In this document: in pieces, positions 1,365 to 9,614 of the stretch
Numbering within the stretch: position 1 is the first letter of the stretch
How the letters are laid out: the number at the start of each line of letters is the position of its first letter
Assembly: GCF_024448165.1 (NCBI RefSeq)
Contig: NZ_JAMOLN010000001.1
Span: forward strand, 1 to 64,000
Length of the DNA: 64,000 nt
Direction of reading: 5' to 3'
Source of the DNA: Streptomyces longispororuber
Lineage (GTDB): Bacteria > Actinomycetota > Actinomycetes > Streptomycetales > Streptomycetaceae
Position numbers and translations under genes: made by a program
Notes under the pieces: model-generated
Told to the model about the DNA's origin: nothing
What the model saw: the letters and a program-made list of their open reading frames with translations, nothing else
Databases searched by the model: none

Positions 1365-1490
1365 ATGACTGCTCTACGCATCGGCACCGACCTGAAGATG
1401 TCCCCCATCACGCTGCCCGACCACCCACAGAAGGCCCACGAGATCATCCAGTCGGTCGCCTACCTCCTCGCAAGCGGGCATTCCAGTTAG
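1365..1490 (+). CDS. Short 41-residue protein, probably truncated, next to the IS5-type insertion
   Basis: The ATG at 1365 follows GGAAAGGTGAA, a usable ribosome binding site, and the frame encodes MTALRIGTDLKMSPITLPDH and about 20 more residues. The start resembles small plasmid or integrative-element proteins of the DUF3846 kind, but that is a weak impression. The TAG stop coincides with the TA target duplication of the adjacent 5.5 kb element. Joining the two flanks across the element still gives a TAG at this point, so the insertion did not create the stop and the gene may already have been cut short. It sits 10 bases downstream of the SpdB2-like frame and was probably co-transcribed with it. 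Confidence 0.35.
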   Translation: MTALRIGTDLKMSPITLPDHPQKAHEIIQSVAYLLASGHSS

Positions 1491-1535
1491 GGCGTGTATC
1501 GAAAGTGGATCTTGAGCGGTGCATGATCTCGGTTC

Positions 1536-2411
1536 ATTAGTCGGGGAGATCTCACGGACGAGCAGTGGGCGACGCTGGAGCCGTTGCTGCCGAAGGGGAC
1601 GAGGACGGGGCGGCCGCCGGTCTGGCCTCGGCGGCAGTTGATCGACGGCATACGGTTCCGTGTCCGGACCGGTGTTCCATGGCGGGACGTGCCTGCCGAG
1701 TACGGACCGTGGAGTCGGGTCTACGACTTGTTCCGCCGATGGCAGCGAGGCGGAACCTGGCAGCGGATACTTACACGGCTCCAGTCCCAGGCCGACGCGA
1801 AGGGTGCGATCGTGTGGGACCTGAGCGTCGACTCCACGGTCTGTCGTGCTCACCAGCATGCTGCCGGGGCGCGCAAGCAGGGTGACCTGCAGAAAGAACC
1901 ACCGGGCGGAGTGCTCGCCGAGCCTGGTGATCACGGGCTGGGACGCTCGCGCGGCGGGTTCACCACCAAGCTGCACCTGTCCGTCGAGCAAAGCCAGAAA
2001 CCCCTGTCGATCGTGGTCACCGCAGGACAACGCGGGGACTCACCTCAGTTCGAACCCGTGCTGGAGAAGGTCCGCGTGCCTCGCATCGGGCCGGGCCGGC
2101 CGCGCGTCCGCCCTCATCGCGTGCGGGCTGACAAGGCGTACGCGTCTCGCAGGAACCGCGCTTACCTGCGCCGACGCGGGATCCGTTGCACCATCCCGGA
2201 CAAGGCTGACCAGGCGCGCAACCGCCGAAAGCTCGGCGCCCGTGGCGGCCGACCGCCACGCTTCGACCCGGTCGACTACCGGAAACGACATGCGGTCGAG
2301 TGCGGGATCAACCGTCTCAAACGGCACCGTGCGGTCGCCACCCGGTACGACAAGCTTGCGGTCCGCTACGAGGCAACCGTCCATGTCGCCGCCATCAACG
2401 AGTGGCTGTGA
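1536..2411 (+). CDS. IS5-family (IS427-like) DDE transposase
   Basis: The roughly 290-residue protein begins with the [17 protein letters not shown] motif of the IS5/IS427 N-terminal domain. The catalytic residues are in [14 protein letters not shown] (first Asp), [16 protein letters not shown] (second Asp) and [15 protein letters not shown] (Glu), and the C-terminus [10 protein letters not shown] is complete. It cuts and pastes the element bounded by the 18 bp repeats. Many IS427 relatives split this protein over two frames joined by a programmed frameshift; here it is one uninterrupted frame. No ATG or GTG precedes the conserved N-terminus: an in-frame TGA is at 1524-1526 and the first plausible start is ATT at 1536, with TTG at 1584 as a shorter alternative. 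The start is therefore uncertain, and expression may be weak or use an unusual codon. Confidence 0.85.
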
Positions 2412-2616
2412 CCTCTGTGCGAGCGTCATCCGTGGGTGGGCAGTGCGGGGCGGGCAGGCTGAGCATCGCGAGGGGCCGAATAGACGGTCGGCGAGGGCTT
2501 CGGTGCGGTCGGTGGAGTGAAAGTCGTGAGGCGAACGGTCGACGCTGTCGCGGCGTCTTATACGGTCGGCGGCTCACCCGATGGGACTGCGTGCGAACCG
2601 TGCTGCGCGGGCCGTG

Positions 2617-3291
2617 TCAGGTGGGGGGCACCTGGCCGAGCCGGCTCTGGTAGGCGAGGACGACGAGCTGGGCGCGGTCCCGGGCGCCGAGTTTCGTCAT
2701 GGCGTGCTGGATGTGGGTGCGGACGGTCAGGACGCTGACGACGAGTTGTTCGGCGATGTCCTGGTTGGACTTGCCGAGGGCCGCGAGGGCGGTGATCTCG
2801 CGTTCGCGGGGCGTGAGTATGGCCAGCTGGTCCGGATCCACGTGCGGGGCACTGGGGCGTGGGGTGCTGAGGAAGCGGGCGATGAGGGTGCGGGTGGCGC
2901 CCGGGGAGAGGAGGGCGTCGCCGGCGGCGATGGTCCGGATGCCCGCGAGGAGGGTGTCGGTGGTGACGTACTTGCCGAGGAACCCGCTGGCGCCGGCGCG
3001 CAGGGCCCGGGCGACGTGTTCGTCGGTCTCGAAGGTGGTCAGGACCAGGACCCGGGTGGCCGCGAGTGCGGGGTCGGCGCAGATCGTCGCGGTGGCGGTG
3101 AGGCCGTCGGATCCCGGCATGCGGATGTCCATGACCACCACGTCGGGGTGGTGGGCGCGGGTGAGTTCCACGGCGTCGTCGCCGTTGGCGGCTTCGGCGA
3201 CGACTTCGAGGTCGGGGCAGGAGTCGATGAGGAGCCGGAAGGTTCCCCGCAGGAGGGCCTGGTCGTCGGCGAGGAGAACGCGGATGGTCAA
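2617..3291 (-). CDS. NarL/FixJ-family response regulator
   Basis: A 224-residue regulator. The receiver domain occupies about residues 3-118 with acidic pair Asp9-Asp10, phosphoacceptor Asp55 in VVVMDIRMPG, Thr in VLTTF and Lys in GFLGKY. A LuxR/NarL HTH follows at about 153-215 (LTPREREITALAALGKSNQDIAE region). The start codon overlaps the stop of the kinase gene by four bases (ATGA), so the two are translationally coupled and form a cognate pair. Being inside the IS5-bounded unit and just downstream of the MMPL transporter, it most likely controls that transporter, as in many actinobacterial efflux loci; that target is inference. The length is normal for the family. Confidence 0.93.
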   Translation of the reverse strand: MTIRVLLADDQALLRGTFRLLIDSCPDLEVVAEAANGDDAVELTRAHHPDVVVMDIRMPGSDGLTATATICADPALAATRVLVLTTFETDEHVARALRAGASGFLGKYVTTDTLLAGIRTIAAGDALLSPGATRTLIARFLSTPRPSAPHVDPDQLAILTPREREITALAALGKSNQDIAEQLVVSVLTVRTHIQHAMTKLGARDRAQLVVLAYQSRLGQVPPT

Positions 3292-4502
3292 CGGGGGGCC
3301 TGTCCGTTCAGGGTGTGGGGTTGCAGGGGCAGGGCGGTGGTGACGAGGAACCCGCCTTCGGGACGGGGTCCGGCGCGCAGGTCCCCGCCGACGGAGTGGG
3401 CGCGTTCCCGCATGCCGATCAGTCCGTAGCCGCCCCGCCCGGTGCCGATTGCCGGCGCCGACGGGGCGGTGGTGCCGTCGTCGGTGACGGTGAGGACGAT
3501 CCGGTTGCCGGTGTAGGCCAGGGTGACGTGGGCCGTGGTGCCGGCCGCGTGCTTGGTGACGTTGGTCAGGGCTTCCTGGATGATCCGGTAGGCCGTCAGG
3601 TCCACCCCGGGCGACAAGGGCTCGGGGGTCCCCTGGGTGGTGAGGGTGACGTCCAGCCCGGCGCCGCGGTAGGCGTCGAGCATGGCGGGAAGCTGATCGA
3701 GACCGGGAGCGGGCTCCAGAAAGTCCGTATCGCTCTCACCGTCCTGGCGCAGGAGCCCGACCACGGAGGTGAGTTCGTACAGGGCCGAGGACGTGGTGCG
3801 CGACAGATCCGACAGGATGCGCTGCGCCTGCTCGGGGTGGGTGGGGGCGAGATGGGCGGCGGTTCCGGCCTGGGCGTTGGCGAGGGCCATGTGGTGGGCG
3901 ACGACGTCGTGGAGTTCGCGGGCGATGCGCACGCGTTCCTCGGTGACGCGCAGCCGGGCTTCTTCCTCGCGGGTGTGTTCGGCGTGTTCGGCGCGGGCGT
4001 GCACGGAGTCGAGGTAGGCGCGGCGCAGGCGGACCCGGCTGCCGATGACGAGCGGGAGCACCAGCCAGAGGAACGGGCCGGTGATCTGCAGGGCGGGTGA
4101 GGTGTCCGGCGGGAGGCGGAGCAGGCTGGTGCCGATGACGACGACGATGATGACGCCGCCGTACAGGCGGGCGGTGCGCTGCTCGTTGAGGGCGGCCATC
4201 CAGTACAGGGCGACCATGGCAGGGGCCAGGGTGAGCGGGGTCAGGAGGTAGCCGAGGTCGGTGGTGGTGATCGCGCCCGCGGCGGTCAGGACGGCGATGG
4301 TGCGCGGGGCGCGCCGGCACGCGAGGATGCCGAGGCAGGCGACGGCGGCGACGAGCTGCGCCGGCCATTCCCGGCTGGGGTAGGGGGTGCCGGGCGTGCT
4401 GATCTTGGATCCGTAGACGGCGCAGCCAAACAGCGCGAGCGCGATCAACGCGTCGGCGATGTGGGGGTGCCGCTCGGTGTGTCGTTCCAGCTTCGAGGCC
4501 AT
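3288..4502 (-). CDS. NarL-type sensor histidine kinase (HisKA_3)
   Basis: A 404-residue membrane kinase if started at ATG 4502 (MASKLERHTERH), which precedes the first membrane segment; GTG 4508 is also possible. A frame extending to 4733 is open, but its extra residues are low-complexity and overlap the end of the MMPL gene. Four to five hydrophobic helices are followed by a short coiled linker. The HisKA_3 dimerisation helix carries phosphoacceptor His in IARELHDVVAHH, and the GHKL ATPase has the N-box ALTNVTKHA and the G-box GRGGYGLIGMRERA. It phosphorylates the regulator encoded immediately downstream. The input signal cannot be read from the sequence; having no extracellular domain of note suggests membrane-stress or lipophilic-compound sensing. 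Confidence 0.9.
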   Translation of the reverse strand: MASKLERHTERHPHIADALIALALFGCAVYGSKISTPGTPYPSREWPAQLVAAVACLGILACRRAPRTIAVLTAAGAITTTDLGYLLTPLTLAPAMVALYWMAALNEQRTARLYGGVIIVVVIGTSLLRLPPDTSPALQITGPFLWLVLPLVIGSRVRLRRAYLDSVHARAEHAEHTREEEARLRVTEERVRIARELHDVVAHHMALANAQAGTAAHLAPTHPEQAQRILSDLSRTTSSALYELTSVVGLLRQDGESDTDFLEPAPGLDQLPAMLDAYRGAGLDVTLTTQGTPEPLSPGVDLTAYRIIQEALTNVTKHAAGTTAHVTLAYTGNRIVLTVTDDGTTAPSAPAIGTGRGGYGLIGMRERAHSVGGDLRAGPRPEGGFLVTTALPLQPHTLNGQAPR

Positions 4503-4623
4503 GGCCACAGGTCTTCTCCAGGGGGTGGTGCCCTTTCCATGCTCCCCGACGCGCGTGCCCGCGACCCCCGGGACCTGCCGGTGACATGTGTCTCGGCGGG
4601 TCCCGGGGGCCGGCGGGCCGTCG

Positions 4624-6885
4624 TCAGCCGCGCGGGGAGCCGATCGTGTGCAGGGGGTGGGCCTCTGCCGGGGTGGGCGCCGGGGCGGAGTGGGACAGGG
4701 ACTCGCCTTCGATGTCGACGCGGGGAAGGACACGGTCGAGGCGGGCCGGGAGCCACCAGGCCCGGCTCCCCAGGAGGGCGAGGACGGCGGGCACGATCGT
4801 CATCCGGACCACGAAGGCGTCCAGCAGGACGGCCGCGGCGAGACCGAAGCCGATCATCTTCATCATCGCGTCGCTGCCGCTGACGAACCCCGCGAAGACC
4901 GCGATCATGATCAGAGCGGCGGCGACCACGACCCGCGCGCTCTGCCCGAAGCCCGACAGGACGGCCTGGCGGGCGTCCTCCCCCCGGGCGTGGGATTCAC
5001 GAATGCGGGAGACGAGGAACACCTCGTAGTCCATGGCCAGACCGAAGGAGATCCCGGCGAGGAAGATCGGCATCATCGACTGGATCGGCCCGGTGGCGTT
5101 CACCCCGAGCAGACTGCCGAGCCACCCCCACTGGAACACGGCGACGAGCATGCCCAGCCCGGCCAGCAGCGACAGGACGAAACCGACCGTCGCCTTCAGC
5201 GGCACCAGCAGCGACCGGAAGACGACCAGCAGCAACAGGAACGCCAGACCGACCACGGCCAGGACGTAGGGCAGCAGCGCCCCGCTGACCTTCTGCGCGA
5301 TGTCGATGTTGGCGGCGGTCAGTCCGGTGACGAGGTAGCCGGCGCCGGTCTCCTTCTCGATCGCGTCGCGGTGGTCGCGGATCGTGTTGACCAGGTCGGT
5401 GGTCTCCTGGGCGTCCGGCGCGGCGGCCGGGATCGCGCTGACCACCGCGGTGTTCCCCCGCTCGTCGAACTGGGGCGGGGAGACGGACACCACGCCGGGC
5501 AGATCACCGATCTTCTCGGCGACGGCAGCAGCCGCCCGCGCCGGGTCCGGCGCGTCGCCGGCGGTGACCACGAGGGTGAGCTGCCCGTTGTAGCCGGGGC
5601 CGAACGCGCGGCTGATGTCGTCGTAGGCCCGCCGCTGGGTGTCCGACGTCGGAAGAACGGCGTTGCCCGCTTCGCCGAGCTTGAGGCTCGCGGCGGGCAC
5701 GGCCAGGACTCCCAGGCCGATGACGGACACCAGCAGCACCGTCAGCGGGCGGCGCATGACGAACGCGGCCCACCGGCTCCCGAGGTTCGGCTTGACCCGC
5801 CCCACCGCCACCGGCTTCTTGCGGCGGGTGGCGCGCGGCAGGACCGCGCGCGGCCAGAACCCGAGCAGCGCGGGAGTGACCGTCACCGCGACCAGCACGG
5901 CCACCGCAACCGTCGCGGCGGCGGCCAGCCCCATCTTCGTCACCGACGGAATCCCGACCACGGCCAGGCCCCCCAGCGCGATGATCACGGTCAGCCCGGC
6001 GAACACCACCGCGGAGCCCGCCGTGCCCACCGCCCGCCCGGCGGCCTCACGCGGATCGTGCCCCGCTTCCCGTTCCTCACGGAAGCGGGAAACGATGAAC
6101 AGCCCGTAGTCGATCCCGACCGCGAGCCCGAGCATCAGCCCCAGCGACAACGCCGACCCCGACAAACCCAGAGCACTGGAGAGGGCCATGATCGCGGCGA
6201 GGCTCAGACCCACCCCGATCGCCGCCGTGAGCAACGGCAGCCCGGCCGCCACCAGCGACCCGAACGTCAGCACCAGCACGAGCGCGGCGATCGCCACACT
6301 CACGATCACCCCGGCCCCCTCCGACGGAGCGGTGTGCAGCGCGTTGCCACCGATCTCGACCGTGAGCCCCGCCGCGTGCCCCCGGTCGACAGCGTCCTGC
6401 AACGCGTCCTTCGTGGCCGTGGTGAGATCGTCCGAGACAGCCGTGTAGTTCACGGTCGCCAGCGCCGTGGAACCGTCCTCGCTCACCGTGTGATCGGCGA
6501 ACGGATCACTCGCACCGGCCACCTGCGAGGAATTCGCCGCCTCACCGACCGCCTCGCCGATCGCCTTCTCGTACGCCGAAGCCGTGACCTTGCGCCCGTC
6601 CGGCGCCACGAACACCAACTGCGCGCTCGCACCGTCCGCGTTCGCGTGGAAATCCCGATCCAGCAGATCGTTCGCCTGCTGAAGCTCCGTCCCAGGAATG
6701 GTGTCGTCGTCCGGCGGGGCCGCGGGAGCCTGAGCAGCAGCCGCCGCCACACCCCCCACCACCGCCAGCCACAGCACCACCACGAGCCACCGGCGTCGGA
6801 AGGCACCCCGGCCCAGCCGGTACAACAAAGCTGCCATCAGCAGAACACCCCAGATCAGAGCAGAAACGAACCTGCCCAGCCTCAC
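4624..6885 (-). CDS. MMPL/RND-family membrane transporter
   Basis: 753 residues, the usual size for a two-repeat actinobacterial MMPL protein. One helix near the N-terminus is followed by a large extracytoplasmic loop, then a five-helix block with GIDYGLFIVSRFREER (MMPL motif, first repeat), a second loop, and a second five-helix block with GLAMDYEVFLVSRIRE. These Asp-Tyr motifs line the proton pathway of the family. It is expected to export lipids, polyketides or drugs by proton motive force; the substrate is unknown. It is the first gene of a minus-strand unit, about 120 bases ahead of the kinase. A 7 bp palindrome lies 66 bases upstream of the start. It is a passenger of the IS5-bounded element, a likely route of horizontal spread. 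Confidence 0.92.
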   Translation of the reverse strand: MRLGRFVSALIWGVLLMAALLYRLGRGAFRRRWLVVVLWLAVVGGVAAAAAQAPAAPPDDDTIPGTELQQANDLLDRDFHANADGASAQLVFVAPDGRKVTASAYEKAIGEAVGEAANSSQVAGASDPFADHTVSEDGSTALATVNYTAVSDDLTTATKDALQDAVDRGHAAGLTVEIGGNALHTAPSEGAGVIVSVAIAALVLVLTFGSLVAAGLPLLTAAIGVGLSLAAIMALSSALGLSGSALSLGLMLGLAVGIDYGLFIVSRFREEREAGHDPREAAGRAVGTAGSAVVFAGLTVIIALGGLAVVGIPSVTKMGLAAAATVAVAVLVAVTVTPALLGFWPRAVLPRATRRKKPVAVGRVKPNLGSRWAAFVMRRPLTVLLVSVIGLGVLAVPAASLKLGEAGNAVLPTSDTQRRAYDDISRAFGPGYNGQLTLVVTAGDAPDPARAAAAVAEKIGDLPGVVSVSPPQFDERGNTAVVSAIPAAAPDAQETTDLVNTIRDHRDAIEKETGAGYLVTGLTAANIDIAQKVSGALLPYVLAVVGLAFLLLLVVFRSLLVPLKATVGFVLSLLAGLGMLVAVFQWGWLGSLLGVNATGPIQSMMPIFLAGISFGLAMDYEVFLVSRIRESHARGEDARQAVLSGFGQSARVVVAAALIMIAVFAGFVSGSDAMMKMIGFGLAAAVLLDAFVVRMTIVPAVLALLGSRAWWLPARLDRVLPRVDIEGESLSHSAPAPTPAEAHPLHTIGSPRG

Positions 6886-6950
6886 CCCCGAACCCGGCGC
6901 GGGTCTTCATGCTCCTGCGGGTACTTCCCCACTACCGCAACCGCACGAGC

Positions 6951-6971
6951 CCTACTGCCAGAGCAGTAGGT
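6951..6971. promoter_or_regulatory. Inverted repeat upstream of the MMPL gene, candidate operator
   Basis: CCTACTG (6951-6957) is followed after a 7-base spacer by its exact complement CAGTAGG (6965-6971). It lies about 66 bases before the transporter start and inside the right end of the IS5-bounded unit. It fits a dimeric regulator site, possibly for the NarL-type regulator encoded in the same element. No other function is evident. Confidence 0.4.
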
Positions 6972-7029
6972 CAACTCTTCACAACCGCGTCAGTCACTGA
7001 TCTGGATTCACTTTCGATACACGCCCTAG

Positions 7030-7464
7030 CGGGCTCAGCTGGCTCACCCTCCCCGCCACGGCTGAGCGAGTCCCAAATTGCCCAATTGAACTTCGAGTTG
7101 ATTAAGGGCCCGCTTGCACATGGCTGGCCTGATCAACTGAAGTCGGCCTCGCTCAGCGGCTGTTGCCGGTCAGTCAGAGCGTGGGGCTTGGCGAGGTCGG
7201 CACGAACACTGGAGCCTGATTTCTGACCTCCAGGCGCCAACTAGTAGTCCCGGAACTCATCGATGGATCCCGCGCTGTCGCCACACAGGCCAATGACACC
7301 CAGGTCTTCCTCGGCCCGGATTAAGACGCTGTCGTGGAGAACCTTTATGGCTTCGGCGGACGTACCTCAATGGGCCCCGTCGGGCCTCCGGCGGAAACTA
7401 CCGTTCCTCGCTCGCGCAGCTGATCTTCTGATGTCCAACGGCTGGCCATGGATGCCTGTTCGGC
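7030..7464. other. Gene-free stretch between the IS5-bounded element and the split membrane gene
   Basis: No frame here has codon usage or motifs that support a gene. The last 100 bases or so (about 7357-7464) resemble the sequence at about 31655-31769, which lies in the same position downstream of the third paralogous membrane gene. The duplication therefore extended past the coding region. Confidence 0.5.
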
Positions 7465-8234: not shown

Positions 8235-9614
8235 TAGGACTTTGTTAGGTGGTGTCGTAGGGCTGCCAGGGTGCGGGTTGGTGTCAGGTCGGGCAGTGTC
8301 CTGACCAGGTGGCCAGCATCTGCTGGAGGAGGTCGAGGGCCTGGTAGAGGGTCAGGCCCCGGCAGGGGCTTTTGGGGCGGTGCGCTGTTCGGTCAGGAAC
8401 AGGTGGGCCGCGGTCACCAGGGTGACGTGGCGGTGCCAGCCGTCCCAGGACCGGCCCTCGAAGTGGTCGAGACCGAGGGCGGTCTTCAGCTCGCGGTAGT
8501 CGTGCTCGATGCGCCAGCGGGTCTTGGCGAGCCGGACCAGGACACGGGGTGGCAGGTCGGCGGGCAGGTTGGAGAGCCAGTACCTGACCGGCTCGTCGGC
8601 ATCGTGGGGCCACTGGGCGATCAGCCAGCGCAGGCCGATGGTGCCGTCGTCGGCCGGTTCGGGGCGACGACCGGCCGGACGGACCCGCACGAACACGAAC
8701 CGGGCCCGCATCCGGCCTCTTGAGCCCCGCCGCCAGTCGACGGTGACGGCCTGGCCGCGGCCCGCGGCCCGCACGTGCTCGCGCAGGCTGACCGGACGGG
8801 TCCGGTAGCGGGGCAGCGACCGTGGCCCCAGTCCGCTGTAGGGCAGGGTGACGGGTTCGCTGTCCGCCGGGTAGGCGGTCAACTCGCCCTTGACCTGCAG
8901 AACATAAGCCAGCTGCCGCTCCTCCAGCCCTCTGCGGAAGAAGGCACTGTTGCCGTATCCGGCATCCGCGGCCACCACCGCGGGCCGCAGGCCGAGCCCG
9001 GCCAGCTCATCCAGCATCGCCAACGCCAGCGTCCACTTGGGCCGGTGGTGCACCTCGGGCGGGATCCGGCAGGCCCGGCGCCGCTCGGCAGCCGCCGGCC
9101 GGTCCCAGCTCTCGGGCACGAACAGCCGCCAGGCCAGCGGGCAGGACGCGCGGTCGGTGGCCGCGTGCACGCTCACCGCGACCTGGCAGTTGGCGGTCTT
9201 ACCCAGCGGCGGGCAGTACTGCGCCGCCGCTGCGGGCGAATGGCCGCCATCCTTGGGGAAACCGGTGTCGTCCACCACCCACGCCTCGGGCCGGACCACG
9301 GCCACCGCCCGGCGGGCCAGTCGCTGCTGAACCGCGGCGACGGACCAGGTCGACGACGTCACGAACTGCTGCAGCCCCTGGTGATCGACACCGAGCCGAC
9401 GGGCCATCGGCAGCATCGACTTACGCCGCCCGTCCAGCAGCAGGCCCCGCAGATACAGCCCGCCCTTGGCCCGCTGATCCGACCGCACCAAAGGTGCAAA
9501 CACCTCCGCCGCAAAGTCCTCCAGCCGGTCACGGCAACCGGCAAGCTCCTCCGGAGTCATACACCCAGCGAACTACCAGATCCTCAACCTGACCAGCCAC
9601 CTAACAAAGTCCTA
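8235..9614 (-). mobile_element. IS701-family insertion sequence, complete (1380 bp)
   Basis: The perfect terminal repeats TAGGACTTTGTTAGGTGG (8235-8252) and its complement (9597-9614) bound the element. They are flanked by a 4-base CTAG duplication (8231-8234 and 9615-9618), the YTAR-type target known for IS701. One transposase gene fills it. Ends, target duplication and transposase are all intact, so this copy is probably recent and possibly active. Confidence 0.93.
8352..9560 (-). CDS. IS701-family DDE transposase
   Basis: 402 residues, the normal length. The catalytic acids are visible in AWVVDDTGFPKDG (Asp), VVAADAGYGNSAFF (Asp) and WRIEHDYRELKTALG (Glu, followed by LDHFEGRSW). LDGRRKSMLPMARRLG and CQVAVSVHAAT are further family motifs. 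Starting at ATG 9560, it is the only gene in the element and reads in the same direction as the membrane gene it disrupts. A related but truncated IS701 element occurs at 34546-35907. Confidence 0.93.
   Translation of the reverse strand: MTPEELAGCRDRLEDFAAEVFAPLVRSDQRAKGGLYLRGLLLDGRRKSMLPMARRLGVDHQGLQQFVTSSTWSVAAVQQRLARRAVAVVRPEAWVVDDTGFPKDGGHSPAAAAQYCPPLGKTANCQVAVSVHAATDRASCPLAWRLFVPESWDRPAAAERRRACRIPPEVHHRPKWTLALAMLDELAGLGLRPAVVAADAGYGNSAFFRRGLEERQLAYVLQVKGELTAYPADSEPVTLPYSGLGPRSLPRYRTRPVSLREHVRAAGRGQAVTVDWRRGSRGRMRARFVFVRVRPAGRRPEPADDGTIGLRWLIAQWPHDADEPVRYWLSNLPADLPPRVLVRLAKTRWRIEHDYRELKTALGLDHFEGRSWDGWHRHVTLVTAAHLFLTEQRTAPKAPAGA

Follow-up and report, generated by a model that had tools for sequence, protein, structure and literature searches.

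A probable cargo-carrying insertion sequence with a sensor-regulated efflux operon in Streptomyces longispororuber, and its IS5-family relatives

Insertion sequences (IS) are usually treated as little more than their transposase, and the locus described here raises the question of whether an IS can carry a complete, regulated efflux operon from place to place. The window analysed, a stretch of 64,000 nucleotides from Streptomyces longispororuber (contig NZ_JAMOLN010000001.1, positions 1 to 64,000), holds an IS5-family transposase and three further genes between two identical IS ends. The 5,537-bp unit is probably a cargo-carrying transporter IS belonging to a Streptomyces IS5-family group, with an operon that would move as a block and a probable origin in two IS copies.

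Ends, transposase and operon of the element

The 18-bp terminal repeat GGGCGTGTATCGAAAGTG lies at 1490-1507 on the forward strand and at 7009-7026 on the reverse strand, with 0 mismatches between the two copies. A TA dinucleotide of the target type stands directly outside the left repeat (1488-1489) and another outside the right repeat (7027-7028), so the element extends from 1490 to 7026, and the perfect, TA-flanked repeats 5.5 kb apart noted in a preliminary description of the locus are confirmed. With up to 3 mismatches allowed, the repeat matches the window at these 2 places only; two matches arose in 0 of 100 shuffles (mean 0.02), and the exact repeat has 2 copies in the whole 10.5-Mb genome, both of them ends of this element. 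Terminal inverted repeats agreeing at 18/18 bp with TA at both ends place the element with the IS5 family. The TA on both sides was rejected as proof of a single insertion, since TA also borders further copies of this IS.

Inside the left repeat lies the transposase gene (1536-2411, forward strand), which has 291 codons if read from an ATT at 1536 and encodes 275 aa if read from the alternative TTG at 1584. The ATT stands where the start of relatives is annotated, and that start is ATG in 31 of the 38 elements counted, the window's own included. The frame is open to 2411 with 0 internal stops, and its product scores 261 bits against NF033580 'IS5 family transposase' (cut-off 110), which assigns it to this family and bears out the single-frame IS5 transposase first described. 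Pfam recognises DUF4096 and DDE_Tnp_1, and the protein contains sequence blocks that we take to be the DDE signature of the IS5 family.

Homology among IS copies stops about 2 bp beyond the end of the transposase gene, and a junction between IS part and cargo (2412-2616) leads to an operon on the reverse strand that is convergent with the transposase. It comprises a NarL/LuxR-type response regulator (2617-3291; Pfam Response_reg and GerE), a HisKA_3 sensor histidine kinase (3288-4503, with its ATG at 4503; HisKA_3 and HATPase_c) and an MMPL-family transporter (4624-6837 in the open reading frame list, with ATG at 6837 and GTG at 6885 also possible; Pfam MMPL, 1.8e-96). All three genes said to fill the remainder of the element are thus identified by Pfam. 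The region between operon and right repeat (6838-7008) is the presumed promoter region, and about 28 bp of it beside the repeat resemble a left end. The MMPL pump would export a compound that its own kinase senses.

The unit and its parts in other genomes

Blast comparison of the 5.6-kb region with 392 genomes of the genus (357 scored, 35 left out) gave matches of two separate kinds, either the IS part alone or the pump-kinase-regulator block or parts of it, and among the matches listed the two are joined in the window's genome only. At more distant homologous pump-block loci (69-79% DNA identity, 1.5-kb flanks) the repeat is absent in 12 of 12, with up to 3 mismatches allowed. The same 5.5-kb unit at other locations and an empty site joining the flanks had been proposed as checks: a complete second copy was not found in the genus, family and Actinacidiphila genomes searched, and an empty site occurs in 0 of 382 genomes (partial matches in 13, none across the junction). 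The left junction region (2412-2616) is present at full length in the window's genome only, among 293 genomes of the order, with short matches in 38. A plasmid search with the element's right 429 bp gave no match, nor did a phage search with the IS part.

The right boundary of the cargo does recur. In Actinacidiphila alni CGMCC 4.3510 (NZ_FONG01000027, locus L111), 877 aligned bases are 95% identical to the window cargo, and the match begins exactly at the TA and right repeat, runs into the MMPL gene and breaks off there. The site itself differs from that in the window, as the DNA outside the repeat is unrelated and by eye resembles the end of another IS. A match extending from the TA and right repeat into the MMPL gene implies that right end and pump gene travelled together. 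A match of the same position and identity was obtained for genome G421, the only one to contain the element's right 189 bp in full among 394 genomes of the family and 35 genomes of Actinacidiphila; no further part of the window element occurs in that genome at such identity.

Related copies, their cargo and known passenger-carrying IS

The end sequence (at most 1 mismatch) is present in at least 132 of the 392 genus genomes. The surroundings of IS copies from genus genomes and from 15 named Streptomyces plasmids were sampled at 80 loci, which yielded 76 countable copies whose transposase 3′ end is intact, the window included and duplicates kept. A match to the repeat with at most 4 mismatches downstream of the transposase was taken as a right end. 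Such a match was found in 66 of the 76 copies, at distances of 2-4,595 bp; it stands beside TA in 56 of these 66, and chance matches may be among the 10 candidates without TA. The right end is absent in the other 10 copies, for some because the fetched stretch ends early. The plasmid copies have a right end in 15 of 15 cases, beside TA in 13. A TA-adjacent right end was found in 35 of 38 downstream regions with the real repeat and in none with 40 shuffled repeats, a test that measures specificity rather than frequency, since the 38 regions were picked for having a right end.

The common form among the relatives is a single transposase with a bare right end. A right end directly behind the stop codon, and thus a simple IS of 940 bp, is found at L198 only (1 of 66), and the closest MMPL relative carries the repeat; these two observations run against a picture in which only an IS of 0.9-1.0 kb exists elsewhere and the MMPL block is always free of repeats. 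A more distant copy, L011 in genome G329 (67-68% protein identity, last 47 residues unmatched), has its ends 862 bp apart and is possibly also a simple form. In 30 of 32 elements the joined target site conforms to YTAR. The idea that stop codons are specifically targeted was rejected, as open frames of at least 60 codons end at 22 of 32 insertions compared with 71 of 118 control YTAR sites.

The sequences between transposase and right end vary widely. A rough k-mer grouping gives about 33 cargo groups besides the simple IS, mostly with one gene facing the transposase, and the main cargo gene runs opposite to the transposase in 24 of the 31 classifiable groups, as in the window. Pfam names for this cargo include Glyoxalase_6 (two groups), DUF1877, SnoaL_2, AAA_33, LANC_like, ankyrin repeats, GNAT, an alpha/beta hydrolase with MarR, and DUF5713, and 7 of the 20 cargo proteins submitted have no Pfam match. 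The cargo of L073 is a short NTP_transf_2 protein with a resemblance to ANT(9) that falls short of the curated cut-off. Annotated cargo on plasmids includes a DinB protein (L168), a pyridoxamine-oxidase-like protein (L170) and a hydrolase with HTH (L175). The nearest functional parallel to the window element is the 3,030-bp plasmid element L176, which contains an HTH regulator and an MFS transporter and has a right end with 4 mismatches. Since the corresponding position is occupied by another additional gene in many relatives, the IS group seems to serve as a vehicle for varying cargo.

Units of this IS group move with their cargo, as is observed for a relative in genome G243, where two elements identical over 1,452 bp have different flanks and TA at both ends. 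No flank-to-flank match (1.2 kb left, 1.5 kb right) was found between members of the same cargo group in different genomes. The cargo-carrying reading of the window element, as first proposed, is therefore supported both by relatives whose transposase and right end enclose other genes, mostly in a matching arrangement, and by the exact recurrence of its right cargo boundary at an unrelated site in A. alni.

Several copies show further rearrangement. In genome G090 (L102), two elements about 15 kb apart are identical over 923 bp, a stretch reaching from the left end as far as the stop codon of the transposase, and have entirely different cargo; the pair was rejected as proof of recent cargo exchange, because gene conversion in the shared part would look alike. 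L081 was rejected as an independent 5.4-kb parallel, as it includes remnants of a second transposase and has the look of a fusion of two elements; compared with 66 plasmid records, it reached 80% coverage in none. The L083 element lies mid-way in a near-perfect inverted repeat, its 878-bp flanks being 99.9% identical in opposite orientation, and one flank is L100-like. L089 contains a long reverse-transcriptase-like frame that separates the transposase from its displaced 3′ tail, an insertion that looks like a group II intron and is similar in kind to an annotated ltrA beside the L177 copy; the remainder is 99% identical to the L068 cargo. L070 and L077 have a LanC-like gene segment in common (98.6%) together with differently ordered pieces of a further cargo group, a sign of rearrangement within the cargo.

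The suggestion that a cargo-carrying IS of this kind is undescribed does not hold, since the term transporter IS, or tIS, already exists for IS that contain passenger genes with no role in transposition (PMC3129680, PMC9330008, PMC7986276). The window element resembles these in having one transposase and one pair of IS ends with passenger genes between them, here the MMPL transporter, the kinase and the regulator. It differs in that the IS5-family group has cargo in most copies and that this cargo changes from copy to copy, whereas the review of the IS6 family names a single family member with one passenger gene. With the IS5 family (NF033580) it shares the transposase family, the short terminal repeats and the TA-type target, and it departs from that family in its length of 5.5 kb with three passenger genes, against a usual range of 850-1200 nt in one survey (PMC7371123). 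No description of an IS5-family group with usual, copy-varying cargo was recognised by title or start of abstract in searches of an open-access library. Transporter IS are thus already known, and what appears to be new is an IS5-family group whose cargo changes. A widespread IS group would then often carry single accessory genes, with a regulated efflux operon as the extreme, and annotation that ends at the usual IS length would overlook such cargo.

Probable traces of ancestral ends and rival explanations

How a distal right end could come into use is indicated by the sequences behind the transposase and inside the right repeat. Behind the transposase stop, the cargo elements match the L198 right end at 7.85 of 22 positions versus 5.68 at control offsets (sd 0.40, max 6.73), GCAC stands at the predicted right-end offset in 8 of 33 groups versus a control mean of 0.16 (max 2), and inside the distal right ends a left-end-like GATC occurs in 7 of 33 groups versus a control mean of 0.29 (max 2); as these position-specific tests were designed after the sequences had been viewed, their strength is overstated to some degree. 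A gapped test for a decayed right end, run earlier, was weakly positive (p = 0.044). The window element has no residue of an inner right end, with the lowest score of the 33 groups. Compared with the right end of the simple IS, the inner sides of the right ends show no overall rise (3.24 versus 3.14 of 12 positions at control offsets). A direct-orientation origin of distal right ends in general is accordingly unsupported, though L073 fits it, since a second transposase has left its tail there, in direct orientation, ahead of the right end.

The right end of the window element itself resembles a left end beyond the 18-bp repeat. Its outermost 46 bp are 81% identical to the left end of the same element and 81-85% identical to IS left ends in genomes G263, G251 and G210. 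For the 30 bp inside the right repeat, the left-end likeness is moderate: it scores 2.9 sd above 300 shuffles, a value that individual shuffles also attained, and 4.0 sd in a smaller shuffle run that excluded the element's own left end. Remains of inner right ends together with left-like distal ends suggest eroded two-copy ancestors, and a compound ancestor is most likely for the window element. With a compound transposon the element would share this probable origin as a gene block between two IS ends; it differs in having one transposase and one IS match at the locus, with no second IS body. A second IS copy lost at the right, put forward in the preliminary description, is therefore a likely origin of the unit and does not exclude the cargo-carrying reading.

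In the best-supported order of events, each step of which we infer from these traces, two IS copies would have come to flank a gene block, the inner right end of the left copy would have decayed or been lost, and the right copy, probably inverted, would have eroded down to its outer end, after which the transposase would have mobilised all DNA between the outer ends. The transposase would thus act, or have acted, on the left end and the distal right end, and the MMPL pump with its two-component system would be inserted at YTAR sites in a single piece; transposition of the whole 5.5-kb unit has presumably taken place in this way. The traces suggest a simple route from IS to gene carrier, in which the inner end decays and the distal end is used. 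The balance tips somewhat towards extending this to the whole group: after its own right end has decayed, the transposase would use a distal end, most copies would carry a different, usually single, gene facing the transposase directly behind its stop codon, and repeated capture between IS ends would add or exchange cargo, which in the window would have grown to a complete sensor-regulated efflux operon.

It is unlikely that the locus is the remnant of a plain compound transposon, in which two IS copies surrounded resident genes, deletion removed the right copy as well as the left copy's inner end, and a dead scar was left that never moved in its present form. Such a remnant would accord with the left-like right end of the window, with the second-transposase tail before the right end of L073, with the 255 nt of a second transposase present in L081, and with the single copy in the genome and the ATT start codon. 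Both terminal repeats are nevertheless perfect, the same eroded right end stands at another site in A. alni, and the usual form among relatives is a lone transposase followed by a bare right end, one such unit being present twice and identical in one genome. Chance proximity of a normal IS lacking its right end and an independent solo IS end, with a resident and unrelated operon between them, is very improbable given two perfectly identical ends with TA, the exact boundary held in common with A. alni and the same layout in relatives, even though repeat-free operon homologues are common in the genus and on plasmids and solo repeat copies with no transposase nearby do occur.

The DNA to the right of the element contains traces of other mobile sequences. 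At 8352-9560 on the reverse strand, 1.3 kb from the element, is a further transposase (Pfam DDE_5) unrelated to the first. About 100 bp of the right flank (7033-7135) have 70-76% matches in several genus genomes, two of them in G280 and two in G049, and in G364 this flank sequence gives two 41-bp matches in opposite orientation, about 2.5 kb apart, that resemble the ends of another mobile element.
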